A DNA stretch of 23,031 nt from a virus, in the IMG/VR virus record IMGVR_UViG_3300033149_002750, positions 1 through 23,031 of that record. One strand, 5' to 3'. This document shows positions 3,104 through 17,943 of this stretch, piece after piece (within the stretch, counting starts at the first letter, position 1; each line of letters opens with the position of its first letter). A program made the position numbers and the translations under genes. The notes beneath the pieces were generated by a model. That model was not told the DNA's origin, did not search any database, and saw only the letters and a program-made list of their open reading frames with translations.

Positions 3104-3453
3104 GGCATCTCTTCCCAAGAAAGACCTACTTTAAACCACAGTCCACCAATGGGGGTAATGCTTGGAGGTTCTACAAATCTAAACTCTGACTCTACCCCTG
3201 TCATTGGATGATTATAATTAAATGTTCTGACTCCATTGTTCAAAGTTGTTTTATAAAAAGTAGATAAGATTGAGTAATCATCTTTTTCTAAATCAATTGA
3301 ACAACTAAACCTATCTATCTCTTTAGTAAATCGGCTTCTGATTTTTGCAGGCCCTACATCTACTGTACTTCTAATTGTTGTTTTACCAAACTGTTGAGTG
3401 AACCCAGCTTGATTTAATAAATCTTGTAACTCATTTGGAAATGATTCTGCCAT
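3100..3453 (-). CDS. minor tail protein (conserved tail-tip family)
   Basis: A 117-residue protein directly after the tape measure gene, where lambda has gpM. It shows a pattern I associate with a small siphophage tail family: a start near an FP motif, IRSTVDVGPAKIRSRFT in the first third, YSILSTFYKTTL in the middle, a HPMTG turn and FRFVEPPSI near the end. It probably joins the tube or tape measure to the tip, but this rests on position and family resemblance only. ATG overlaps the tape measure stop as TAATG, with GAGGG upstream. No signal peptide or membrane segment is apparent. Confidence 0.75.
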   Translation of the reverse strand: MAESFPNELQDLLNQAGFTQQFGKTTIRSTVDVGPAKIRSRFTKEIDRFSCSIDLEKDDYSILSTFYKTTLNNGVRTFNYNHPMTGVESEFRFVEPPSITPIGGLWFKVGLSWEEMP

Positions 3454-5900
3454 TATCGCCCTCTTCTGTTTAGTCCGTAAACTTCATTAAAAGTTCGATC
3501 AAGTTTACCTTCTCCAATAGCTCTTGAGACTTTATCAACTATTAATACTTCTATTTGATTTTCTCCACCAGGAGTCTTTGATTCTTTTGTTTCTATTTCT
3601 GCTGAAGAGTTATTAACAATGTTAACAACTGTTCCACCGCCTCTAACTCCAAGTCTACCCTGACTGTCACGGCCCAAAGGCATTATAGCCTCAGGGCCTT
3701 CCTCCGCCATTAAGCCCATTCCATTCTTCATAGGGAAAAAGGTAGGAGAACCAACAACACCGCCATTGGCAAACTGTTGGACACCATTATTCCAAACACC
3801 GCCTCTTGCTTGTAGATAAGGAGAACTATATGACAGAGAGCCTGAGCCCCCTGCTGCTGCTCCAGATGAAGCAGCTGTTCCAGACATTCCAAAAGCACTT
3901 AACAGTGGTTTTAGTATGGCCAATCTAATAGTTATTTTAGTTAGTTCATCAACAACAACTTGAGCAAAGTCTTTAAAAGCGAACTTACCTGTTTTTACAA
4001 AATTTAGTAATTGATCTTCTAAGCTACCCATAACTTTATTAATACCTCTAGCAATATTATTTGCCAGAGATCCAACACTCTTAATAGCGTTTTCAATCCC
4101 CACGGTAAAGCCTAACTCTATTTGGCCCATGTTAGTCATTTCATCCTGAAGTCCTTGAACTTTAGTTAATTGTTCGTAGTACTCCATTAAAGTTATTTTA
4201 CCGTTCTTAAATTTCTGATTTAAATCTGTTTGTTTAGTTTTAGCAATTGCATCTCTGTATTCTTCCATAGAGATAGCGCCTTTTATAACTTGAGCATTAA
4301 GAGCAGCAAAAGCTCCTGTAGCCGCATTAAGCAGGCTTTTCATCTTTGACAACTTCTTTCCTGCACCAATTATTCTATCTATTGCATTTTTTTTATTTTC
4401 TTTACTTGGCGCTTGAAGTTTTTTTATTTCTTTATTTATTTCTTGTATCTCTTTTTTTGCAGTACCACCGACACCTTTTAATTTCTTTTCTAGAGCGTCT
4501 AGCCCTGCTGCACTAGAGACACCCGCACCGAACTCGTTAACCATTTTCTTAACAGATGTCCCTGCGGTATTGGCCGTTTCTATTACAGCTTTGCCTACAT
4601 CTTTGTATTTCTCTACTATAGTGTCTGCTGCTTCTATTATTACTTTTTTGGGCAACAGCTTTTCTATTTTATCAAGTATCTTTTTTAATCCAACTTTATC
4701 TGCAAAGTTATCAAAAACTTCTTTAGCTTCTTCAACTATTGTTTCCCAAAGCTTTTTAAAGTTTGAGGTGAGCGTTACGTGAAGTTCTGTAAAACCTTTT
4801 TTAACTAAGTTCCACCCAATTAAGACCTTAAACCATTTAGCAATAACTTCTCCCATGTGCTCAACGGTTGTTGTGTATTTTTCATATAGTATTTGAGAAG
4901 ATAAAAGTATCTTTTGTATTTCAAGTAAGCTTATCCTCCAATTATATATTTTCTCAGAAAGAGTAACAATTGCTTGTGCTTGCCATCCTAGAGGATTTCT
5001 TGGGTCCATCATAAAATCATAAAACTTAACAACTGCCTCACCAGCAAACTTAAATACTTCTAAAACCTTTTTTGTATGGTGAACTATAACGGGAATATTT
5101 TCTGAAACAGAAACTGCCCATGCCCCAAAAATATTAGAAAGGCCTAACTCTTGGTTTATTTCGTGCACTACTCGTTTAACAACATCTAAAAGAATATTAG
5201 CACCTTGTTCGAAGGTAGTTCCAAGACCGGATGCCATCTTCTCTAGATTGCCCATACCTTTACCAAGTGCTCTAAAGACAACATCACTAGTAATCTTTCC
5301 AGACTCAGCAAATTTAATTAATTGTCCTCTAGCTATCCCTAATTCTTTAGCAAGCATTCCTGCGAATATGGTGTTTTGTTCCATGACGCTGCGCAACTCT
5401 TGTCCACGAAGTTGACCCGATGATAAACCTTGTGAAAGCTGTATAGTAGCGGCTGTAGCCTCTGCAATAGTTGAACCCGATATTCTAAACGTTTGTTGTA
5501 GTGCTAGAGAAGTTGCTAGTATCTCGTCCTGACTTAATCCAAGTTCTTGAGTAGCAAGTGCTATTCTGTTATAGGATGTTGCAAGAGATTCAATACTAGT
5601 TCTGGTGTGTCTAGCTACAGCAGTTAGGTCGTTAAAAACACCCTTGGCGGTTTCTGCATCACCAGTAAAAACAGTTATTCTATCGCTTAGTAACTGGAAA
5701 GAGTCTGCCATTCGAGTAACTACTCCAATGGAACGTATAGCAATAAATGCTGCGAACAAACCTTTCAGTTTAAAAAGAGTACTACCAAAGCCTTTTACTG
5801 TTTTATTTAGTTTGGTAAATTGGGTATTAAGCATCTTTAGCGCTTTATCCCCTCCTACCTTAACCATTACAATGATTTTTCTAATTTTTGTCTCTGCCAT
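3453..5900 (-). CDS. tail tape measure protein (lambda gpH-like)
   Basis: An 815-residue protein, the longest complete gene here. It sets tail length and occupies the tube lumen before DNA ejection. Visible parts: a hydrophobic patch around residues 41-63, a tape-measure domain at about 65-240 (ELRSVMEQNTIFAGMLAKEL, then KITSDVVFRALGKGMG), a long helical Lys/Glu-rich middle, Gly/Ser/Ala-rich stretches, and near 730-752 the EEGPEAIMPLGRDSQGRLGV signature typical of lambda-like tape measures. At about 1.5 angstrom per residue it predicts a tail near 120 nm. I chose ATG 5900 because GAGGA lies six bases upstream; the frame also opens at a GTG ten codons earlier (5930) without a comparable site. 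It overlaps the chaperone T segment by 20 nt. Confidence 0.95.
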   Translation of the reverse strand: MAETKIRKIIVMVKVGGDKALKMLNTQFTKLNKTVKGFGSTLFKLKGLFAAFIAIRSIGVVTRMADSFQLLSDRITVFTGDAETAKGVFNDLTAVARHTRTSIESLATSYNRIALATQELGLSQDEILATSLALQQTFRISGSTIAEATAATIQLSQGLSSGQLRGQELRSVMEQNTIFAGMLAKELGIARGQLIKFAESGKITSDVVFRALGKGMGNLEKMASGLGTTFEQGANILLDVVKRVVHEINQELGLSNIFGAWAVSVSENIPVIVHHTKKVLEVFKFAGEAVVKFYDFMMDPRNPLGWQAQAIVTLSEKIYNWRISLLEIQKILLSSQILYEKYTTTVEHMGEVIAKWFKVLIGWNLVKKGFTELHVTLTSNFKKLWETIVEEAKEVFDNFADKVGLKKILDKIEKLLPKKVIIEAADTIVEKYKDVGKAVIETANTAGTSVKKMVNEFGAGVSSAAGLDALEKKLKGVGGTAKKEIQEINKEIKKLQAPSKENKKNAIDRIIGAGKKLSKMKSLLNAATGAFAALNAQVIKGAISMEEYRDAIAKTKQTDLNQKFKNGKITLMEYYEQLTKVQGLQDEMTNMGQIELGFTVGIENAIKSVGSLANNIARGINKVMGSLEDQLLNFVKTGKFAFKDFAQVVVDELTKITIRLAILKPLLSAFGMSGTAASSGAAAGGSGSLSYSSPYLQARGGVWNNGVQQFANGGVVGSPTFFPMKNGMGLMAEEGPEAIMPLGRDSQGRLGVRGGGTVVNIVNNSSAEIETKESKTPGGENQIEVLIVDKVSRAIGEGKLDRTFNEVYGLNRRGR

Positions 5901-6201
5901 TTTGTTCCTCACTGAACTCAATGTACACACTGTCTAACAATCGAACTATAGAGATGAAGTCCTCAGTGTCTTCTATATCGTATAGTTTAACATACTCTAT
6001 GATAGCGGTAAAAGGAATAGGTGACAAACTCATTGTACTCCTACAAGTACTGAGATCAGAAAAGCATTCTAGGTACCAACTAAAAGGGCCTAGAAAAGGT
6101 TCTTTATCTTCTTCCTTTAAACTGCCTTTAGATAAAAGCATATCATAACTGTCTAACTTACTGCGCCATTTGAGTGACCATTTCAGCCACCGCGCTAGGA
6201 G
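5881..6201 (-). CDS. tail assembly chaperone, T-like segment made by -1 frameshift (GT fusion)
   Basis: This frame has no convincing start of its own. Read from the slippery heptamer at 6207-6201 in the -1 frame it stays open to the stop at 5881, adding about 106 residues (beginning LLARWLKWSLKW) to the first 130 residues of the G-like protein, for a GT fusion of about 236 residues. In lambda-type tails G and GT coat the tape measure and bring tube subunits to it; T is not made alone. Placement just before the tape measure gene is exactly as in lambda. An internal ATG at 6141 would give an 86-residue stand-alone form, but I see no good ribosome site for it and the continuous open frame upstream argues for the fusion. 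Confidence 0.85.
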   Translation of the reverse strand, partial: LLARWLKWSLKWRSKLDSYDMLLSKGSLKEEDKEPFLGPFSWYLECFSDLSTCRSTMSLSPIPFTAIIEYVKLYDIEDTEDFISIVRLLDSVYIEFSEEQNGRDKN

Positions 6202-6743: not shown

Positions 6744-7928
6744 TTAAGATTTAAATATAGTTAGAGCAGATTCTCCACTAGCTCCAACTTTTGCAACACC
6801 AGACATAGTAATCATAACATCTGAGTTTTGCCCAGCACTTGCAGGGTCGTCAAAAGATACCTGGACTGCTGGTAAAAAGAAACCGTAATATCCATCATCG
6901 TTCTTAACCTGGAAACCAAGAGAGAAAGATTCCTGACTTATTTTCTTGGCCATTGTTGCCCATGAATCATCTGAAAGATAAGCAGTGATTGTTACACCAA
7001 TCTGTGCTGTTCCTTCAGAATAATCTTTGGGGGCTATTCTTCCAACACAATTTTGCGCTGTTAAATTATTTGAAAAAGTTAAATCAACACCTTGAATACA
7101 GAAAACTGCATTTTCAAATGTTCCAGATGCGCTTGAAGCAATGAAAGGCATATCAACAGATCCGTTCATTGAATTGCTTGTAGCTGCTGCATCTATTGTT
7201 CTAGTATCAGTCATGAAATCACCAGCAGACTCAACTGCTTCATAACCATTACCAGAAAATGTAAAACTACCAGTTATGATACTTCCATAAGCAGCGTTAA
7301 TAGCTCCTTCAGAAACAATCATTCCATTGTAGTTAATACCTTTTGTAGTTAAATCTAAAAAAGCTTTTTCCATAGCGAAAGAAGTTTTTGCTATTCCAAT
7401 ATCAATATTATCAGAAACCTCAAAAGATGTTCCACTTCCAACTTCATCAACTATTGTTGTAGGCCCTATAAAAGAAACAACCGTTGCACTATCAATTGAA
7501 GCAATCATAACTTGAGTGTTATTAACTGAGTTTGCCATACCAGCAAGAGTTATTAAATCTCCTACTTCAGAATCAGTATTCCAATCACCAGCACCCCTAG
7601 TAAGTGTTTTTGCTCCTGCTGCTATTGTAATGTCTACAGTAACTGTTGAAGGAGTATTCCAAGTACTATACATCATTGATTTAAAAAAACTATCAATAGC
7701 TGTTTCTTTAGCTAACTCTATATTTAAAGCACCACCTACAGTTAAACCTGTAACGACTTGCCCACTGCTCATTCGATCTGTTCTGATCTGTGCAGACTCA
7801 GCTGTTTCAGGAGAACCCGAAAGCGAATCACTTGTAAATCTTGCTGTTGAAAAATTTCCCGCTGGTGGAACAATTCCATAATCGACCTCTTCAATGAATG
7901 CTACTCTGACTAAATTTGAACTCGACAT
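6744..7928 (-). CDS. major tail tube protein
   Basis: A 394-residue Ser/Thr/Gly/Ala-rich beta protein. Its N-terminus (VRVAFIEEVDYGIVPPAGNF, then RFTSDSLSG and RTDRMSSGQ) and the FSFSGNGY-type middle resemble the siphophage tail tube family that includes Phage_tube_2. It would form stacked hexamer rings of the tube. A middle segment (about residues 96-170) has a separate beta-rich composition and may be an added Ig-like domain, as in many tube proteins. It follows the tail terminator gene and is followed at once by a strong terminator, fitting a high-copy product. ATG 7928 has AAGGAG upstream. Confidence 0.9.
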   Translation of the reverse strand: MSSSNLVRVAFIEEVDYGIVPPAGNFSTARFTSDSLSGSPETAESAQIRTDRMSSGQVVTGLTVGGALNIELAKETAIDSFFKSMMYSTWNTPSTVTVDITIAAGAKTLTRGAGDWNTDSEVGDLITLAGMANSVNNTQVMIASIDSATVVSFIGPTTIVDEVGSGTSFEVSDNIDIGIAKTSFAMEKAFLDLTTKGINYNGMIVSEGAINAAYGSIITGSFTFSGNGYEAVESAGDFMTDTRTIDAAATSNSMNGSVDMPFIASSASGTFENAVFCIQGVDLTFSNNLTAQNCVGRIAPKDYSEGTAQIGVTITAYLSDDSWATMAKKISQESFSLGFQVKNDDGYYGFFLPAVQVSFDDPASAGQNSDVMITMSGVAKVGASGESALTIFKS

Positions 7929-9135: not shown

Positions 9136-9461
9136 TATCCCGTCCTTACTCTATATCCAATTATTTTTCCCATAGTTATCATTGGCTTTACATAAGTTAT
9201 TGTTTCTTCTCCCATACCAGCATCTGTTATTCTAACACCTCTTTTTAAAGTAGGTGCTGAAACCGATTCTAGTTCTCTTACAGAAAAAACAAACTCCTTT
9301 CCCTCAACAACCATTTCTTCTGGGCCATTCATATTTCTAAAGTAGTTAGAAGAAGCAGCTGTTACTTGAGCAGAAACAGCTGTATCTAAATCTTCCAAGG
9401 TAACTGTTCTTCCTTGAAGATGTATTAAAGTATTAAATGCGTTTTCCAAACTAGCTAACAT
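9135..9461 (-). CDS. probable head-tail joining (stopper) protein
   Basis: A 108-residue protein following the connector gene, where siphophages keep the small head-closure or stopper protein. The C-terminal half is beta-strand rich (KEFVFSVRELES, TLKRGVRITDAGM, IGYRVRTG), like the small barrel of lambda FII-type joining proteins, but I recognise no signature. Assignment is by order, size and predicted strands. ATG 9461 has AAGGAG upstream and overlaps the connector gene by 11 nt. Confidence 0.55.
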   Translation of the reverse strand: MLASLENAFNTLIHLQGRTVTLEDLDTAVSAQVTAASSNYFRNMNGPEEMVVEGKEFVFSVRELESVSAPTLKRGVRITDAGMGEETITYVKPMITMGKIIGYRVRTG

Positions 9462-10113
9462 AGTGCTCCTTTATAGAACCTATAACTGCTCTTTCACTTC
9501 TATGAAAATCTAAAACATTTACGTAATTACCAAGTATCATTCCAAAGGCAACTTTTCTTTCATTGGCCTGAAGAGAGTAATCAAAGTCTAAAGACATTGT
9601 TCCTGGAATAGATATTCTTTGAACATCGTTTCCAAAATTAAGTCCTACTCCGTTTACTTTTTTATTATAACTTTCTTCTACTAAACTTTTTACCACTGAT
9701 TGAATCTCATAAGGAACTATTGCATAACCAGCTGAATAGGTAACAACTATTGTGTTGTCCGCTGTATAGTCTGTAAACCAATGTCTCTTATATCCACTAT
9801 CAATTCTATACATCATTCCCGATGGGTCATGTATTCTGTATACTGAAGCATCTAAAACAGTTCCACTATCACTAACAGAAACAATAGCAGTAAGAGGGAA
9901 GTGATAAAGTAATAGTCCATAGCTTCTATACTCCGTTAAATAATCATCGCCATAAAACGTTTGCACATAAGAAGTTTCATTAAATTTTCTCCCGCAGTAA
10001 TTCTCTATAGCAGAACTTACTATATTTAATTGCTCCGTAAGAAAATCATCATAGGTAGTATCTATAAGAGGGATACCAAGGTAGGTTTTCATTTCATCGA
10101 GAGTCACTAACAT
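9451..10113 (-). CDS. head-tail connector protein (HK97 gp6-like)
   Basis: A 220-residue protein with the connector start LVTLDEMKTYLGIP, the helix pair LTEQLNIVSSAIENYCGRKF, the strand pattern FPLTAIVSVSD and VYRIHDPSGMMYRI, and VTYSAGYAIVPYEIQSVVKSLVEESYNKK. This is the usual layout of gp6/phiE125 gp8-type adaptor proteins, which form a ring under the portal. Such genes usually sit right after the capsid or portal gene; here about 6.5 kb of fibre genes separate it from the portal. AGAGG lies before the ATG. Confidence 0.85.
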   Translation of the reverse strand: MLVTLDEMKTYLGIPLIDTTYDDFLTEQLNIVSSAIENYCGRKFNETSYVQTFYGDDYLTEYRSYGLLLYHFPLTAIVSVSDSGTVLDASVYRIHDPSGMMYRIDSGYKRHWFTDYTADNTIVVTYSAGYAIVPYEIQSVVKSLVEESYNKKVNGVGLNFGNDVQRISIPGTMSLDFDYSLQANERKVAFGMILGNYVNVLDFHRSERAVIGSIKEHYVS

Positions 10114-10114
10114 C

Positions 10115-10660
10115 TTATACCTCTACTTCTTTTACAATTTCCCAGTTTACTTTATCTTCATAAATTTCTTCAGGATGAATCATCTTCCCATACTCAAACT
10201 TTATACTAGGGATTATCTCTTTTACAATAGCTGTTGCTGCTTCAGTGCAATACCAACTATCAGTACTTTTTAAACTAAGTTCAAAATCATATCTAATATT
10301 TTCTTTAGAATATTTAATCGCTAGGTTAGCAATCGCATGCCTTTGTTCTTCTGTTACATTTCTAAGTCTTAAAATAGCATACTTAGAACTTCTCTCTAAA
10401 ACATAATGAACTGCTCTAGCTAAAAACCCATCTCGTCTAGCAGAACACATTGTATCTGGGCCTACTATGATCTCCATATGTTTATATTTACCTTTAATTC
10501 CCCAATTGCTTAAACACCAGGGAGTAAACGTAAGTAAAGCATAAGCTGCATAATCTTCGTTTCTAAACTCATGTAGTTCTTGAGCAGATACTTTTCGCTT
10601 CCAAGGAATATATAAATAAACTAAAACTTTTTTTATAAACCAAGCCGATAGCTTTCTCAT
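10115..10660 (-). CDS. YiiX-like permuted papain-fold (NlpC/P60 superfamily) hydrolase
   Basis: A 181-residue protein with a circularly permuted papain-like layout: the His comes first (His61 in GKYKHMEIIVG) and the Cys later (Cys138 in WYCTEAATAIV), with SARRDGF (73-79) and NIRYDFEL (121-128) between, as in YiiX/YebB-type permuted NlpC/P60 proteins. Those families act on amide or ester bonds in cell-wall or lipid substrates; the substrate here is unknown. It ends the fibre cassette, so a role on cell-surface material or peptidoglycan is possible. The N-terminal 24 residues are basic and hydrophobic (KKVLVYLYIPWKRK) and could touch membrane. Its ATG overlaps the upstream stop as ATGA. A second, unpermuted NlpC/P60 protein is encoded at 2676-2284. 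Confidence 0.7.
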   Translation of the reverse strand: MRKLSAWFIKKVLVYLYIPWKRKVSAQELHEFRNEDYAAYALLTFTPWCLSNWGIKGKYKHMEIIVGPDTMCSARRDGFLARAVHYVLERSSKYAILRLRNVTEEQRHAIANLAIKYSKENIRYDFELSLKSTDSWYCTEAATAIVKEIIPSIKFEYGKMIHPEEIYEDKVNWEIVKEVEV

Positions 10661-11526
10661 ATATCAAACTCACTTACTAAATATTGTCTAATAGTAACTA
10701 GGCCGCCCATAGATGCTGGCGCTTTGTCTAACCACTCTGTATAAGTTACTCGGGCTTCCTCTTCTAGCTTAACCGCTACTGTTTTTTTACCAAAGTTAGG
10801 ATCAGCAGGATCAGTTATAGATGAACTATTATTTATAAATCTATCAAACTCTTCTTCATACTCATCTAAAAATTCTCTACCTCTTAACAAGACAGCATCT
10901 TGAGAATATCCAAGTGGCATTAGCGCCTCTACCATCATAGACAACACTGGCATCTGTATGCTTCTAACAAGAAGACTTCTTCTTCTAATACCTTCTATGA
11001 TCTGGTCTACGTGGTTGATGTTATAATATTTTTTAGTTGTTTTAGTTACTTCATTCTCGGTACCATCTTTATTAATCCAAGTTCTAACTGTATCTCTATA
11101 CCCAGCAAAACCTGTTGCCTCTCTGGTATAGTTAATATCTACTTTAAGTATTAGATTAGTTAACTCCACATCAGCGTACCAGTCCACTCTTGTAACTTCA
11201 CCTTTAGCTACTGTACGCTTAGGAAATAGAGAAGTTGTTAACTCCATCTTATAATCAATTGCTGCAAAATGTTTACCATTTAAAGAAGGACAAACATAAT
11301 CATAGATCTTTGGTTCTTTTTGTTCTAAATCAGTATCAACAAAAGCAGCTACTGTACTATCTACCAGGTCTGTAAAGTAAAGCGTTAACTCTTCTGAAGT
11401 AAACACGGTTACATGTTCATTAATCTTCATGATAGATACCGCACTTGGTATAACCGCAAGTACTTCTGTTTGAAGTTTGTTTATATCTTGATGCGTACAT
11501 GGTGTAGTATATTTAAAATATCTCAC
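10657..11526 (-). CDS. unknown cassette protein, 289 residues
   Basis: I do not recognise this protein. It is mixed alpha/beta with a charged C-terminal half; a Ser/Asp/Pro-rich turn region (NNSSSITDPADPNFGKK) precedes a helical EEEARVTYTEWLDK end. No signal peptide, membrane segment or nuclease motif is visible. It sits between a collagen-like fibre gene and the YiiX-like hydrolase with overlapping codons, so it probably belongs to the same virion structure. I choose GTG 11526, which overlaps the upstream TGA as GTGA and has GGAGGG close upstream; a TTG four codons earlier (11538) is the other option. Confidence 0.6.
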   Translation of the reverse strand: MRYFKYTTPCTHQDINKLQTEVLAVIPSAVSIMKINEHVTVFTSEELTLYFTDLVDSTVAAFVDTDLEQKEPKIYDYVCPSLNGKHFAAIDYKMELTTSLFPKRTVAKGEVTRVDWYADVELTNLILKVDINYTREATGFAGYRDTVRTWINKDGTENEVTKTTKKYYNINHVDQIIEGIRRRSLLVRSIQMPVLSMMVEALMPLGYSQDAVLLRGREFLDEYEEEFDRFINNSSSITDPADPNFGKKTVAVKLEEEARVTYTEWLDKAPASMGGLVTIRQYLVSEFDI

Positions 11527-12266
11527 GCTACCCTCCAAACAAAAAGACTTATATAATGCAATCGAGCAGTACCGCCTGTTGCTTCTTTAGAGAAATATAG
11601 ATCAAAGTTCTTTGTACCTGTAGTTTGAGTACCTAAGTCAAATTGCCAAGACCTAATATTTCTTGCATCACTATTAGTATCTTTCATTTCTTCTACAAAC
11701 TCTGGACCTACTACTGTACTGTTTAATCTCCAATCAAATTCCATATCATTACCAGTACTATGCCCTTTCATACTTAAAGTACATGTTGCTACATAGTCAC
11801 CATTTGCAGGAAAACTTACGTCAAATTCCTTTACAGAAGTTTTTGAATTTGTATCTGGTAAAGTAATTGTACTTGTATCAGTACCCACAAAGATTAAATC
11901 AACTGGTCCTGCTGGCCCGGTAGGCCCTGCAACACCCGCTGGCCCTATAGCCCCGTCTAAACCTTGTATACCTTGTGGGCCTTCAGGCCCTATTAAACTT
12001 GTAGGACTTCCCCAGTTAGTTCCTGTCTTAGGCCCATAGATATGATGATTAGATATATCAATATAAAAATCACCTTCCGAACCTACACCAGAACTTGGAA
12101 CCCCTGCTCCGTTTAATAAATCTCTTGTAAAATATTGTAAAACTCTGTCCTCATCCATTAGAGTAGCAAAGTCGTTATTATCTGAATTTAAAAAGAATGC
12201 TTTGTATCCCGCAGGAGGAGTTTGTATAGAAGCTGCTGGCACAGGATATTTATTAATTTGACTCAT
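11523..12266 (-). CDS. collagen-like fibre protein with C-terminal beta domain
   Basis: A 247-residue protein with three parts: an N-terminal region (1-92) ending near GDFYIDISNHHIYGPKTG, common in phage fibres; ten uninterrupted Gly-X-Y triplets (93-122, starting GPEGPQGIQG); and a C-terminal beta-rich domain (about 123-247) that looks like a trimeric, jelly-roll-type head. Collagen triplets form triple helices, so the product is probably a trimeric fibre or spike. The ATG overlaps the upstream stop as ATGA. Whether it decorates the head, neck or tail cannot be read from sequence. Confidence 0.75.
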   Translation of the reverse strand: MSQINKYPVPAASIQTPPAGYKAFFLNSDNNDFATLMDEDRVLQYFTRDLLNGAGVPSSGVGSEGDFYIDISNHHIYGPKTGTNWGSPTSLIGPEGPQGIQGLDGAIGPAGVAGPTGPAGPVDLIFVGTDTSTITLPDTNSKTSVKEFDVSFPANGDYVATCTLSMKGHSTGNDMEFDWRLNSTVVGPEFVEEMKDTNSDARNIRSWQFDLGTQTTGTKNFDLYFSKEATGGTARLHYISLFVWRVA

Positions 12267-12546: not shown

Positions 12547-14052
12547 TTATCCTTGAACTCCTAAGAACTCTTTTTCAATATCTATAGTTGTTGCATTTTT
12601 AGCAGTTCCACCAATCCATCTATAATCTCCTGTACCGAATGAACCAAAGTTAGCAGTCCAACCTGTTCCAGTCCAGTAGTAGCGAGTACCAGCAGTTAGT
12701 CCGCTGAAACCATCAAGAGTAGCATTAGAAGTTAAAACCTTTACTGACTGTCCATTAGAAACAGTAGTTGCAGCAATACCTATAACCCACTCACCAGAAG
12801 CAATTGTTCCATAAGTAGATACGCTATCATTTGCAGAAACATAAACTGCATCGCCTTTTGCGATTGCTCCGCTGGCAGTATACATAATACCTTGTTGAAC
12901 GATACTTCCATAAAGCTCAGTAAGAGCAGCTTCAACGTTAGTAGCAACAAAGTTATCAGCACTGTCTTCAATGCCAATAATACTTGCACCTTCACCATTA
13001 GTAGAAGAGTTTAGATCTTCAGCTTTAACAGGAAGAGCATTATTAAAAGTTGTTGAGAAAATTACATCCACAGTTTGATCGTCACCACCTACTGTTCCAC
13101 CTACTGTAATAGTAGCATTAGGAGAAGTAAGAGTGTTATCTTCTAAAGCATCAACAGCTGCCCTGTTTTCTACCAAAGCACCTTTAACGGTTGTTGCTGT
13201 AATTGAAGCATGACTAACACCAATATTAGAAGCGCCATACCCATCAACAGTAGATGCCATGTCACTAGCTTTAACTGGCTTAGCATCATTAAATGCTGTA
13301 GACCAATCAAGAGCTATGTTATCAGAACCATCATCTTTTACACCTTCGCCTGCAAAATCATTTGGTTCAATACCAACTTCATTTCCAGTTAGCTTTAAAC
13401 CGCCACCTGAAAGTAAATCTAGTCTGATATCCATACCACTTTTTTCACAACCTAAAGATGCTGTAGTCGCTTCATAAGATTGTTTTGCCCATGCACTTCC
13501 TGTATACATATAGATGCCATCTGTCTCATCATCAATGGCAACTTTCATACCTGTAGTTGGAGAAGTATAAGACCATGCAGCACCATCACTCTCTGCTATT
13601 TGATCTTCATGTCCTGCCCAGTCACCTGTAGCAGTAGCAATAACTAAATATCTTTCGCCTGCCGCATGTACTGGTGGTGTTGTTCTTCTATCAATACAAG
13701 AATCTTGCCATTCTGTCCCAGCAACTAAATCATCTGCATACTTTTTAGTAATTAGTTCATTAGGGCCAGTAAAACTAAAAGCTGTGTTGTACTCAATTTT
13801 ACCAGAAAAATCTCTAGTTCCATCTGCTAAAGTATACTGTGTGTGATCATCATCGCCTTTACCTGAAAGGGCACCGTGATCAATTGCTCCAACATTTACA
13901 AGAGAACTATCTAGCAGTCCTGCTGCATCCAATTTTATTACTTTCCCAGCATCGGCCACGCCTGCTGAACTAGCAATATAATCACTTTCCTCATATGCAC
14001 TTGATTCAGTTTCCCAACCAGATGCATTAATGTACTTAAATTTTTGACTCAT
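12547..14052 (-). CDS. large fibre-like structural protein with DUF2793-like region
   Basis: A 501-residue beta-rich, acidic protein. In order: an N-terminal LDAAGLLD/HGALSGKGDDDHTQY motif (41-73), of a kind frequent in trimeric phage fibres; a DUF2793-like segment (about 112-192, with AGERYLVIATATGDWAGHED and GIYMYTGSAWAK); two imperfect copies of an approximately 50-residue module (about 251-300 and 333-384, KPVKASD..GYGASNIG and LPVKAED..GEGASIIG); and a C-terminal beta domain (385-501) resembling those of two upstream proteins. It is probably a homotrimeric virion fibre. AGGAG lies upstream of the ATG, which overlaps the coiled-coil gene by 17 nt. Confidence 0.75.
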   Translation of the reverse strand: MSQKFKYINASGWETESSAYEESDYIASSAGVADAGKVIKLDAAGLLDSSLVNVGAIDHGALSGKGDDDHTQYTLADGTRDFSGKIEYNTAFSFTGPNELITKKYADDLVAGTEWQDSCIDRRTTPPVHAAGERYLVIATATGDWAGHEDQIAESDGAAWSYTSPTTGMKVAIDDETDGIYMYTGSAWAKQSYEATTASLGCEKSGMDIRLDLLSGGGLKLTGNEVGIEPNDFAGEGVKDDGSDNIALDWSTAFNDAKPVKASDMASTVDGYGASNIGVSHASITATTVKGALVENRAAVDALEDNTLTSPNATITVGGTVGGDDQTVDVIFSTTFNNALPVKAEDLNSSTNGEGASIIGIEDSADNFVATNVEAALTELYGSIVQQGIMYTASGAIAKGDAVYVSANDSVSTYGTIASGEWVIGIAATTVSNGQSVKVLTSNATLDGFSGLTAGTRYYWTGTGWTANFGSFGTGDYRWIGGTAKNATTIDIEKEFLGVQG

Positions 14053-14389
14053 TTTTTACTTCTCCTGTCCATGGGTTAAATGAAAAATCTTCCATATTGA
14101 TTCTCTTTTTTATTTTATTAAAAGAGATCATATATGTTTCTTCTTCTAGTATATATTCTCTTTGTCTTTTTTGCTTTAATAATTCATTCAAAGTTCTATC
14201 TTTTTCTAGTAAAGCAATTTGTTGAGCTAAAAGCCTGTCTTCCAGTTGTAAAACTTTTTGCTCTAATATCCTTTCTTTCTTCTTAGCATTATTTAGTTCA
14301 ATAAGTTTCATTTCAGCAGATTTTAACACTATTGTTTCTTCTTTCTCTACCGTCTTGCTTGCCTTCTTAACTACTTTCTTTTTTGTCAT
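14036..14389 (-). CDS. coiled-coil protein, unknown role
   Basis: A 117-residue protein with a Lys-rich N-terminus (TKKKVVKKASK) and a long predicted coiled coil (about 25-95, LEQKVLQLEDRLLAQQIALL), ending in a short NPWTGEV tail. No enzymatic motif is visible. Placed between a beta-domain protein and a large fibre protein, it could be a fibre-trimerising or attachment protein or a dedicated chaperone; this is inference from position and coiled-coil form. AGAGGA lies before the ATG, which starts 1 nt after the preceding stop. Confidence 0.6.
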   Translation of the reverse strand: MTKKKVVKKASKTVEKEETIVLKSAEMKLIELNNAKKKERILEQKVLQLEDRLLAQQIALLEKDRTLNELLKQKRQREYILEEETYMISFNKIKKRINMEDFSFNPWTGEVKNESKI

Positions 14390-14390
14390 A

Positions 14391-14822
14391 TTATCCTCTT
14401 AATGTTCTTTCACCTTTAGCAACTAATAATGATACTGCGTCATAAGGTTGTCCAACTCTAATTTTTACTTGGCCTGTTACGCTAGGAGGAGTTACCGTCA
14501 TGTATCCTGCATTAGATGCGCTAAGAAAATATTCTTCAGTCTCATCTAGTCCAGAATATACTGTCCCTTCTGTTACTCCTGTTACTCTAATGTTGCATAC
14601 GGTAGAAGAAACTTTACTCTCTACAACACCAATCAAGTTGGCATTAGTCCAGGAGTTAGCAATAGCGTTTACTGCGGTTCCACTACTCATTCTAACCACT
14701 GCCCCAACAAAAACTGAAGTCTCACAAGGAACATTAGGTATGACAACGTTAGCTCCTCCAATGTCAGAACTAACCAACATTGTTTTACCATATTCATCTT
14801 GTGCTAATAGTTTATATGCCAT
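14391..14822 (-). CDS. small beta-domain virion protein (possible decoration protein)
   Basis: A 143-residue protein consisting almost wholly of the beta domain that also ends its two large neighbours: VFVGAVVRMSSG (38-49), NLIGVVES (62-69), YSGLDETEEYFLS (89-101), VTGQVKIRVGQPYDAVSLLV (115-134). The pattern resembles DUF2190-like phage decoration proteins, suggesting a surface protein of the head or a fibre head. The ATG overlaps the upstream stop as TAATG, so it is probably coupled to the collagen-like protein. Confidence 0.65.
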   Translation of the reverse strand: MAYKLLAQDEYGKTMLVSSDIGGANVVIPNVPCETSVFVGAVVRMSSGTAVNAIANSWTNANLIGVVESKVSSTVCNIRVTGVTEGTVYSGLDETEEYFLSASNAGYMTVTPPSVTGQVKIRVGQPYDAVSLLVAKGERTLRG

Positions 14823-16654
14823 TACGCAATTCCTATTGGTTCTTCAACTTTTATCATAATTGCACCAGTACCCAAAGAGTACCCAACATTAGTTCTGTAT
14901 TCTCCTGTAGTACTCGTAGGGGTTAGTCCCCACGTTCCATCACTTTGTAAAAACAAAGGTTCATTTATTGGGAAAGTAAAAGCGGGATCTTCAATTATCC
15001 CTAATAAAAGTATCCTAAAATCATTCCCCGTACTAGCATCATCAATTGCTACCCCTATTACTTTAGCATCTGTATAGCTAGAAACATTTGCCTTTGTCGC
15101 TGTAGTCATAGAGTCCAGTCTGATTAAATCATAAGCTGAAATATCGGTGGATGCTATTTTTGTTAATGCAAACTTAGAAGGAGAAGGAACTCTAACTTGA
15201 ACGTGTCCGGTATCAGTATATTCTTCACTGAGTGGATCTACATCTGAAAGGAGAACCCAATCTCCCATAGTCGTTTGTACCCAAACCTCTACACCGTCTC
15301 CAATAAAGTTAAAATCTTTTACACACGCGGTTACTTCTACGCCTTCATCCATTACTGGAATACAAGTAGATGTTCCACCTGTAGAAGTTACTGTGGCAGT
15401 TTTAGTTAAATCGTCCCAAGTAACATCAAGTCCAGTATCAAAATCTATCTTCTCTGCTAAACCTACTGTAGTTCCATCATCAAGAACTTCTAGTTCAAAT
15501 TGATCAACAGTTACTGTAGATTTTTTATTAATATCATCCCAAGCAACAGAGATATTATCCCCTTCAAAATTAAGTTGCTCAGATGCTCCAACTAAAACAT
15601 CATCTTTTAATACTTCGAGTGGGTCAGCAGTTCCACCACCGCCTCCTCCTCCACCAGAACTATAAAAGTTTTGTATTATCTTTTCAGCTGAAGGAAGATC
15701 TATTTTATTTGTCTCTATTGCAGTTCCATCACTGAAATAAAAAACTAAACAAAAAGTTTCCCCTACTGTTTCTATTTCTACTGAAACAATTTCAGCAGCA
15801 TCTAGCCCACTGAAACCTTGAGAACCTGGCAGGCCCTGTAGTCCTGCTTTTCCATCAAGACCTGGCAAACCTTGCCTACCCTTGATAGTTTCTTTTTCTT
15901 TAGAAGTTAAGTCCGAGAACTTCAGTTTAAGATTATCTCTTTCATCTGAAATAACTTCTTTTATGTTTTCTTCATTCTCACTAAACTTAAACCCTTTTCC
16001 TCTTTGACCTCTTGGCCCACGTTCTCCTGGAAGTCCCTGAAGGTCTTCTTTGTTTTCTAGGGTTAAGTCTTGGAATTTTAATTTAAGTGAATCTGTTTCT
16101 TCTTCTGTTAAATCTGAAAAGTTTAGCTTTAGGTCTGTCTTTTGATCAGTAAATAGTTGAGCTAAAATATCAACTATCTTTTCTTGTTCTTCACTGAAAG
16201 AAAAACTCTGTCCTGGTTTACCTCTTTGACCTCTAGGTCCGCGTTCACCAGCATCTCCCTGTACACTTAAAGAGTCTTTGTTTTCAAGGATAAGGGACGC
16301 TATATCACCACTGTGCTCTGGAAAAGAAAAGTCCTTGGCCTTCTGGCCCTTAGGCCCCCGTTGTCCTTTTAAAGATACCTTCTCTTCCTGAGAAAGATCT
16401 ATAAACTTTAACTTTAGAGAATCTAACTCTTCCTTGGTTAGATCTTCTAACTTTAATTTTAAACTATCTTTTGACGATTCAAAAACATTATTTAAAATTT
16501 CTTGGATTTTTTCTTTATTATCTTCAAAACTAAAGTCATTTCCTGGTCTACCCTTTAGACCACGCTTACCTCTTTCAGCAGAAGGCTTTTCTATATCAGA
16601 AAATTTATTTTCAATAAGGGCATCTATCAATGCCAATAATGTTGCTTTATCCAT
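14822..16654 (-). CDS. modular collagen-like fibre protein
   Basis: A 610-residue protein. The N-terminal half alternates five short collagen-like blocks (about 29-38, 97-104, 133-148, 207-220, 259-285, e.g. GERGPRGQRG) with spacers that repeat an FSF-type strand, a helix and LKLKF..DLT..E units. Then come a beta segment (288-315), a polyglycine hinge (334-341), two to three beta repeats of about 43 residues (345-382, 388-424 and a partial copy from 432) with WDD..K..TVT, and a C-terminal beta domain (491-610) similar to the next protein downstream. It is most likely a trimeric fibre of the virion. Position next to the portal hints at a head or neck fibre. The ribosome site is weak (TAGG, 3 nt from ATG). 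Confidence 0.8.
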   Translation of the reverse strand: MDKATLLALIDALIENKFSDIEKPSAERGKRGLKGRPGNDFSFEDNKEKIQEILNNVFESSKDSLKLKLEDLTKEELDSLKLKFIDLSQEEKVSLKGQRGPKGQKAKDFSFPEHSGDIASLILENKDSLSVQGDAGERGPRGQRGKPGQSFSFSEEQEKIVDILAQLFTDQKTDLKLNFSDLTEEETDSLKLKFQDLTLENKEDLQGLPGERGPRGQRGKGFKFSENEENIKEVISDERDNLKLKFSDLTSKEKETIKGRQGLPGLDGKAGLQGLPGSQGFSGLDAAEIVSVEIETVGETFCLVFYFSDGTAIETNKIDLPSAEKIIQNFYSSGGGGGGGGTADPLEVLKDDVLVGASEQLNFEGDNISVAWDDINKKSTVTVDQFELEVLDDGTTVGLAEKIDFDTGLDVTWDDLTKTATVTSTGGTSTCIPVMDEGVEVTACVKDFNFIGDGVEVWVQTTMGDWVLLSDVDPLSEEYTDTGHVQVRVPSPSKFALTKIASTDISAYDLIRLDSMTTATKANVSSYTDAKVIGVAIDDASTGNDFRILLLGIIEDPAFTFPINEPLFLQSDGTWGLTPTSTTGEYRTNVGYSLGTGAIMIKVEEPIGIA

Positions 16655-16677: not shown

Positions 16678-17943
16678 TTAGTCTTTAGTTCGCTCTTTTA
16701 AATAGTTTACTACTACGTTATCTACACTTTCAGTATTCTCAGTCTTTTCAGAACCCGTTGATACTTGCTTGTCTACTAACTCGTCTAGCCTATCAACAGG
16801 ACTAAAGTTATTAGTAGCAATATAGTATCTATCTCCATCTTTATATGGCGCAAGTCCTTCTTTCTCTCTCATTTCATTTGGTGTCATAGCTGCATTTTGC
16901 ATCATACGAGAAAAGTATTGTGATCGAGTATCCATGTCTCCACGAAAAACTGCGTATAAATCCATTTCAGTATGTCTTCCACTATGAGAGTTTCCTAATA
17001 ACTTAATATCAGCTTCACTCTCTAGGTTCTTGGCCCATGCATCTAAAGTATCCGTTGCTACTTCTAAATTAGATTGCTCTATATTTTTAAACTTTGCTGT
17101 ATCAGCATCATAAAGCTTAGTTGGTGGTACTCTTAAATATCTAGCGATTTCTAAAACAGAAAACTTTCTACTGTCTAGAAACTGAAGGATACTTGGAGAA
17201 TAAGAAATAGGTTTAAAAGCTGCTCCCTCTTCAAGAACTGCTGTTCCTCCTACCTTCCTTCCAGAATGATTCTCCCCCCAAGAGTCCTGTAATCTTTTAG
17301 CTGCATCTGTACTTAGCCTACCAGGAACTTCTAAAACTCCTGAAGGTAAACCACCGTTGCTATAAATACCACTAGCTAGTTTATCAGAACTAATAGCAAT
17401 ACCAAGAACTTCACTTCCATATTCTATTAAACCTTGGCCGGTAATTCCGTCCTTAGTATAGAAGTTCTTTGCGTGAAAGATATCTTTAGGGAATAAAAAA
17501 ACATCGCCTGTACCCTGTAAAGATCCATTAACAATTCTGTAAACCAATCTGCCATCTTCTAGCCTCATTGGTTCAACAGCAGAATTAGGAATAGGATAAA
17601 GCTCAGTAACTCTTCCCGCAGTATCTCTAACTATCTCTGCATATCCGTTGCCCTTTATTATTGCCTCTTGTAACAAGAAACACTTCAACTGGAATGCAGA
17701 CATTTCGTTATTAGGTCTTAAGTTTAATATCTTACTTATTTGGTCTTTTATTATTTTATTATTTTCGTCTTTAACTAACCACGGGAGCTTTGCTATTTGC
17801 GTGGAGACATATATTACTCCAGAATAGAAGGCAGATGCCTTCATAGCAGTGTCCGCAGTTACTACTGCTTTATTACTATATGAAAGAAGCCTAGTTGTTG
17901 TAGGCGAATCCGGTTTATAACTCTTGTTCTTGAACGGCCACAT
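16678..17943 (-). CDS. portal protein (HK97 family)
   Basis: A 421-residue portal of the HK97/phage portal family. The dodecameric ring forms the DNA gateway at one vertex and docks terminase and connector. Recognisable parts: the start MWPFKNK, AMKASAFYSGVIYVSTQIAKLPW (33-55), LLQEAIIKGNGYAEIVRD, GLIEYGSEVLGIA, SNGGLPSGVLEVPG, FSVLEIARYLRVPPTKLYD, and the C-terminal MTPNEMREKEGLAPYKDGD, all classic for the family; length is normal. It lies after protease and capsid genes, whereas HK97 has it before them. AGAGG precedes the ATG, which overlaps the upstream gene by 29 nt. Confidence 0.96.
   Translation of the reverse strand: MWPFKNKSYKPDSPTTTRLLSYSNKAVVTADTAMKASAFYSGVIYVSTQIAKLPWLVKDENNKIIKDQISKILNLRPNNEMSAFQLKCFLLQEAIIKGNGYAEIVRDTAGRVTELYPIPNSAVEPMRLEDGRLVYRIVNGSLQGTGDVFLFPKDIFHAKNFYTKDGITGQGLIEYGSEVLGIAISSDKLASGIYSNGGLPSGVLEVPGRLSTDAAKRLQDSWGENHSGRKVGGTAVLEEGAAFKPISYSPSILQFLDSRKFSVLEIARYLRVPPTKLYDADTAKFKNIEQSNLEVATDTLDAWAKNLESEADIKLLGNSHSGRHTEMDLYAVFRGDMDTRSQYFSRMMQNAAMTPNEMREKEGLAPYKDGDRYYIATNNFSPVDRLDELVDKQVSTGSEKTENTESVDNVVVNYLKERTKD

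Follow-up and report, generated by a model that had tools for sequence, protein, structure and literature searches.

A collagen-like fibre protein with a repeated spacer module, encoded behind the portal gene of uncultured phages, as a candidate neck fibre

Does a protein in which short collagen blocks alternate with a repeated non-collagen spacer represent a defined fibre architecture, and at which site of the virion would such a fibre be carried? These questions are raised by a 610-residue protein encoded on the IMG/VR virus record IMGVR_UViG_3300033149_002750, which was analysed over its whole length of 23,031 bases (termed “the window” hereafter) and is probably a genome fragment. The minus strand of the window encodes a large terminase, a ClpP-type protease, an HK97-type capsid protein, the portal protein, the fibre protein and several small structural proteins, as well as a gp6-like head-tail connector, a tail tube protein, a tape measure protein and an NlpC/P60 protein. 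Judged by its gene content, this set is a siphophage-like structural module. Since the best match of the capsid protein among 50,697 phage records reaches only 33% identity at good coverage, the phage belongs to a group without close isolates in these records.

Table 1. Features of the fibre gene and its neighbours in the window, listed in the direction of transcription
Feature	Position	Strand	Basis or remark
Portal protein, immediate upstream neighbour of fibre gene	16678..17943	-	PF04860 4.8e-83
610-aa modular collagen fibre protein	14822..16654	-	ORF; stop codon 14822-14824
N-terminal helix MDKATLLALIDALIENKFSDIE, putative anchor	16571..16654	-	Conserved M..(V/I)LLALI.K.(V/I)(D/E)ER
Collagen block 1, 4 triplets, residues 29-40	16535..16570	-	
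Spacer 1 (S1), residues 41-96, 56 aa = 26 + 2 x 15	16367..16534	-	
Collagen block 2, 3 triplets, residues 97-105	16340..16366	-	
Spacer 2 (S2), residues 106-132, 27 aa; remnant, FSF entry, no LKLKF-DLT unit	16259..16339	-	
Collagen block 3, 6 triplets, residues 133-150	16205..16258	-	
Spacer 3 (S3), residues 151-206, 56 aa = 26 + 2 x 15	16037..16204	-	
Collagen block 4, 5 triplets, residues 207-221	15992..16036	-	
Spacer 4 (S4), residues 222-258, 37 aa, one unit, entry shortened by 4	15881..15991	-	
Collagen block 5, 9 triplets, residues 259-285	15800..15880	-	
Post-collagen beta domain AxxIV.VEIE...FYFSDGT.I.TN...LP	15656..15799	-	Conserved in family alignment; strands, pLDDT about 83
Gly-rich linker and about three beta repeats xVxDDGxxVGxAxxxDF...	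15245..15655	-	Sequence; AlphaFold2 strands, low confidence
C-terminal bead domain, gp82C-like, decoration-protein fold	14843..15169	-	8KEG, phmmer, pLDDT about 93, Foldseek
143-aa separate bead protein	14391..14822	-	gp81 phmmer E=0.002; iterated bead profile 2e-29
117-aa helical-looking protein	14036..14389	-	ORF only; no Pfam match above cut-off
501-aa probable distal fibre protein	12547..14052	-	gp81-like N-terminal hairpin motif, DUF2793, C-terminal bead domain
gp6-like head-tail connector	9451..10113	-	PF05135 7.8e-5, 23.4 bits vs cut-off 21.2

The Gly-X-Y repeats of the fibre protein exceed the Pfam threshold for Collagen (PF01391; 29.1 bits, cut-off 27.2), and no other fibre domain scored above cut-off in the same scan; weak matches to DotD, Matrixin, Fin and UIM were judged to be due to chance. 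The N-terminal motif, a helix-like segment, starts almost every relative's fibre. Five collagen blocks parted by four spacers had been described in an earlier note on this DNA, and this layout is confirmed in the 610-residue sequence (Table 1); the collagen pieces measure 9-27 residues, close to the 8-27 given there.

The spacers were compared with each other by local alignment, and each pair was set against 2000 shuffles. The pairs S1/S3, S1/S4 and S3/S4 scored 139, 85 and 87 (shuffled 34.6 ± 6.3, 30.5 ± 5.7 and 27.8 ± 5.2, respectively), values that none of the 2000 shuffles reached, and pairings with S2 were weaker, their scores being reached by 1 to 52 of 2000 shuffles. The LKLKF-x-DLT unit is present in two copies in S1 and S3, in one copy in S4, and is absent from S2. 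S1, S3 and S4 are clearly homologous repeats, and S2 is a remnant that keeps the FSF entry only. The self-alignment proposed in the earlier note has accordingly returned a significant repeat, and the doubling of the unit in two spacers is borne out; the common plan that it ascribed to all four spacers holds for three of them but shrinks to the entry in S2. With an identity of 54% at the protein and 55% at the DNA level, the duplication underlying S1 and S3 appears to be old. A recent in-frame duplication is shown in a relative (contig L011) by four in-register copies of a 99-nt repeat, spaced at 150 nt and up to 93% identical.

A profile search of viral contigs with a three-sequence spacer alignment returned 11 loci. 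A profile from a nine-row module alignment (A2) found 51 viral loci, and one from an alignment of the longest spacers (A5) found 40, many of them shared with the A2 set. After removal of copies, 47 distinct fibre reading frames on IMG/VR contigs were retained. By this sequence comparison the spacer is a real family, and genes of this kind are present in at least 40 related viruses. When the whole protein and the module were run by tblastn against 50,697 phage records, only weak matches covering at most 27% of the query were obtained, and a whole-protein scan of the viral contigs gave one weak locus without the spacer ladder. In a genome collection, profile A5 produced a single match, located on a phage-like contig (L070) of a MAG assigned to Candidatus Dependentiae. 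This phage structural contig (L070 1-16103; RXKB01000049.1) encodes this fibre system and could represent either a Dependentiae phage or a binning error; at the N-terminus of its large terminase frame (23-2035), a LAGLIDADG/homing-endonuclease stretch is probably what ends an intein. Tandem LKLKF-DLTEEE units also precede a coiled coil in other fibre-like proteins that lack collagen (L098, L100, L104).

The lengths of the spacers are strongly quantised. Lengths of 41, 33, 59 and 56 residues occur 48, 38, 20 and 18 times, and 29, 44 and 71 once each; these seven lengths cover 127 of 155 spacers and, once near-copies are removed by dereplication at 60% identity, still 81 of 105, fractions that are descriptive and not a p-value, as the preferred lengths were picked after the data had been seen. 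The lengths can be read as an entry of 14, 18 or 26 residues followed by one to three units of 15 (26+15n, 18+15 and 14+15n). Successive unit cores are most commonly 15 residues apart, and the distance from a unit core to the next collagen block is 13 in 83 of 99 cases. The order of spacer types is also kept along the protein, from 33 via 41 to 56/59, with the series 33,33,41,59 in eight fibres. A low-complexity drift of collagen and KE-rich helix, devoid of any selected architecture, could account for the biased composition and for the degenerate S2. Such drift is nevertheless very improbable, given the quantised lengths below 60% identity, the conserved order of spacer types and the self-alignment scores of S1, S3 and S4 beyond all shuffles.

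Is the architecture known from other systems? Searches of Pfam, PHROGs and PDB sequences with the spacer gave no convincing family match, the PDB searches did not retrieve T4 fibritin, and Foldseek of the module model found no match in the PDB; profile matches of the spacer to Cas2 and other PDB entries were dismissed as chance matches of about 20 residues. The profile search that the earlier note had named as a possible refutation thus places the spacer in none of these families, and its statement that the form was not a recognised one stands for the module. It does not stand for the principle, since published Tal proteins already alternate collagen with a repeated module, Escherichia coli prophage collagens do so in another form, and a staphylococcal tail fibre does so as well.

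In the lactococcal BK5-T Tal, a collagen linker and a 3-beta domain are repeated ten times (PMC9692632, PMC9437275). The Tal proteins of BK5-T and of streptococcal phages share with the present fibre the alternation of short collagen linkers with a repeated non-collagen module, which there builds a long trimeric extension (PMC9692632, PMC9437275). However, the Tal module comprises about 60 residues and three beta strands and belongs to a tail-tip protein, whereas the spacer spans 33-71 residues in 15-residue steps, is predicted to be helical and is encoded in the head module. The AlphaFold2 monomer model did not contain a Tal-type three-stranded beta module, and instead of a gp27-like N-terminus and a tail-tip location there is a short helix-like segment before the collagen and a gene behind the portal gene. 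The E. coli prophage proteins EPclA and EPclB likewise combine collagen with a trimeric alpha-helical PCoil in a phage fibre; their lengths vary in multiples of 3 (Col) and 7 (PCoil), and EPclB has two Col domains around Pf2 (PMC3368898). Yet, they contain one or two long collagen domains rather than a ladder of short repeated modules, and their helix consists of Ala/Ser-rich heptads and not of a 15-residue DLTxEE unit. In the tail fibre of Staphylococcus phage IME1323_01 (ARM67884.1), collagen blocks are parted by single 15-residue units (FTYDDFTPEQLESLK, FRYENFTADQLESLK), but there are only two such spacers, an entry helix is absent, and the gene lies between lysis genes.

The AlphaFold2 model of the module (monomer, 42 module sequences, pLDDT 85) has extended collagen ends and a long entry helix (12-34), and for each 15-residue unit it shows KLK in extended form, then a short turn at FSD and a short helix that is N-capped at LT. 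The model is a monomer of a presumed oligomer, trimerisation being suggested by the collagen blocks; the module is predicted to be helical, and the strand part that the earlier note had attributed to the spacer is not found in it. Triple beta-spiral shafts are built from a 15-residue beta repeat and were considered in view of the spacer period; the period fits, but the predicted monomer consists of helices.

The position of the gene narrows the possible attachment sites. Loci had been picked by the spacer alone and were then checked for a portal gene. The portal family PF04860 was detected in 35 of 36 contigs tested, and the fibre frame starts between -7 and +40 nt from the portal stop codon in all 34 contigs measured; on L070 the fibre frame also overlaps the portal gene. 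As the fibre lies directly behind the portal in every measured contig, the protein probably forms a fibre of adjustable length on the neck or the head. The earlier note had mentioned neither this strict linkage nor the kinship to neck-fibre bead proteins outlined below. A tail or side-tail fibre stalk of the ordinary kind, serving host recognition and encoded in the head module by chance, is improbable: the PHROGs tail-fibre families matched by the collagen blocks are matches driven by collagen, and the portal adjacency holds in all 34 measured contigs, whereas the tail genes are several kilobases away (in the window, tape measure at 3453-5930 and tail tube at 6744-7928). Tail Collar or tail-repeat domains on the distal proteins of some relatives, and the 15-residue units in the staphylococcal tail fibre, would nonetheless agree with a tail location.

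The C-terminal 110 residues are firmly related to the neck-fibre protein gp82 of Anabaena phage A-1(L) (PDB 8KEG, E=3.4e-6; phmmer of gp82, 1.5e-7), in an alignment that spans only residues 112-240 of the 8KEG chain and does not match the neck-binding domain gp82N. In A-1(L), gp82 is fixed to the neck and anchors a fibre, the chain of which consists of gp81 beads and a gp80 tip (PMC10966104). Homologues of gp81 are encoded just downstream of the fibre on contigs L026 (2e-41) and L012 (2e-33), and the one behind the L070 fibre is 40% identical to gp81. The 143-residue protein of the window matches gp81 with E=0.002 in a single direct search and with 2e-29 after iteration, where iterated bead-profile values derive from a small database of related loci. 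A gp80 homologue was sought and not found. In many contigs, including the window, a bead domain is encoded not only by the fibre gene but also by the next and the third gene; in the window, residues 395-493 of the 501-residue protein match the bead profile (E about 1e-21) in addition to a Pfam DUF2793 match (50.0 bits, cut-off 27). The N-terminus of this protein, KVIKLDAAGLLDSSLV, resembles the N-terminal segment KIIMTDSSGKIDSTLM of gp81. Roughly a third of the tabulated contigs have no bead domain near the fibre and encode other distal proteins instead, which is what an exchange of distal parts would lead one to expect. The likeness to A-1(L) comprises the gp82C-homologous bead, the downstream bead genes, with gp81 homologues in relatives, and the hairpin-like N-terminus on the distal protein. 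In contrast, the gp82N anchor is replaced here by an N-terminal helix and a collagen/helix rod, and the neck-fibre genes of A-1(L) have neighbours other than the portal gene.

In Foldseek, the model of the bead (pLDDT about 93) is similar to decoration proteins and to the head fibre of phi29; because this fold is common to capsid decoration proteins and phi29 head fibres, it fits the neck and the head surface alike. A head-surface fibre, present in many copies and bound to the capsid shell by its bead or its N-terminal helix, would be comparable to phi29 gp8.5 or SPP1 gp12. Capsid and portal-capsid entries among the Foldseek matches (phi29 prohead chain 6qvk_1f, 6e-4) and the place of the gene in the head module are in line with such a fibre, as is the description of SPP1 gp12 as a collagen-like decoration protein and of the gp8.5 beta-tulip base (PMC7602432). 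The phi29 fibre further has a trimeric helical spike, but this is a coiled coil without collagen, and its base is N-terminal, whereas the present bead is C-terminal (PMC7602432). A weak match to Phage_cement_2 (PF09956) points to the head surface as well but remains below the cut-off of 24 bits (18.1 bits; best relative, 22.4). Moreover, the fibre gene always adjoins the portal gene and not the capsid gene, and gp82, the nearest sequence match of known position, is a neck fibre. We consider a head-surface fibre possible but rather unlikely, and favour attachment to the neck with moderate confidence over the head surface and the tail, although gp82N is not shared with the fibre, about a third of the tabulated contigs lack a nearby bead domain, and S2 breaks the spacer pattern.

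The protein is thus best pictured, with due reserve, as a homotrimeric virion fibre at the portal/neck end of the head, in which a jointed collagen rod ends in a bead with further fibre proteins attached to it. The conserved N-terminal helix would anchor the fibre, and residues 29-285 would form the rod. Its individual collagen triple helices are probably too short for stability on their own and may be kept in register by alpha-helical trimer modules, which would consist of the entry helix and 15-residue helix-capping units ending exactly at the next collagen block. The beta domains after the last collagen block would lead to the C-terminal bead, which has the fold of decoration proteins; the 143-residue bead and the 501-residue distal protein, the latter with a putative docking hairpin, may be added to it in analogy to gp82-gp81-gp80. 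Such a fibre might mediate a first, loose host contact or hold parts of the tail. The length of the rod would be set by the number of modules and units in the gene, which may be gained or lost through in-frame duplication. The earlier note had proposed a jointed rod scaling with module number, and a comparison of this number among related phages. The number does vary as the scaling needs, from 2 to 6 modules per complete fibre by a strict count; the bending we infer from the junctions.

More tentatively, these phages may encode an undescribed family of portal-linked collagen neck fibres in uncultured siphophages, which combine gene-coded fixed length steps, of one triplet for collagen and of n x 15 residues on an entry of 14, 18 or 26 for the helical joints, with module duplication and swappable distal bead or receptor proteins. 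A literature search on collagen neck or head fibres, carried out largely outside subscription journals, found no such protein described. The architecture of the fibre includes a module that Pfam, PHROGs and PDB do not contain, its length steps can be read from the sequence, and in this group of uncultured phages it is tied to a single gene position behind the portal. Collagen blocks as short as 3-6 triplets, which helical trimer modules of small size appear to hold, are natural examples useful for collagen design, and the protein can be tested as a candidate collagen-based neck fibre.

The window encodes a second collagen-like protein in the same operon (11523-12266; 247 residues, a single block, Pfam Collagen below cut-off). 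A 181-residue protein (10115-10660) without a Pfam match looks by eye like a YiiX-type permuted NlpC/P60 peptidase, and a similar-looking gene occupies the corresponding place on L070 (12223-12966). Finally, homologues of the gp81 bead, annotated as hypothetical proteins, are found in Silicibacter phage DSS3phi2 (gp34; L105 6001-6507) and Pseudomonas phage KPP25, and bead-chain fibres may also be present in the N4-like roseophages and the KPP25-like phages.
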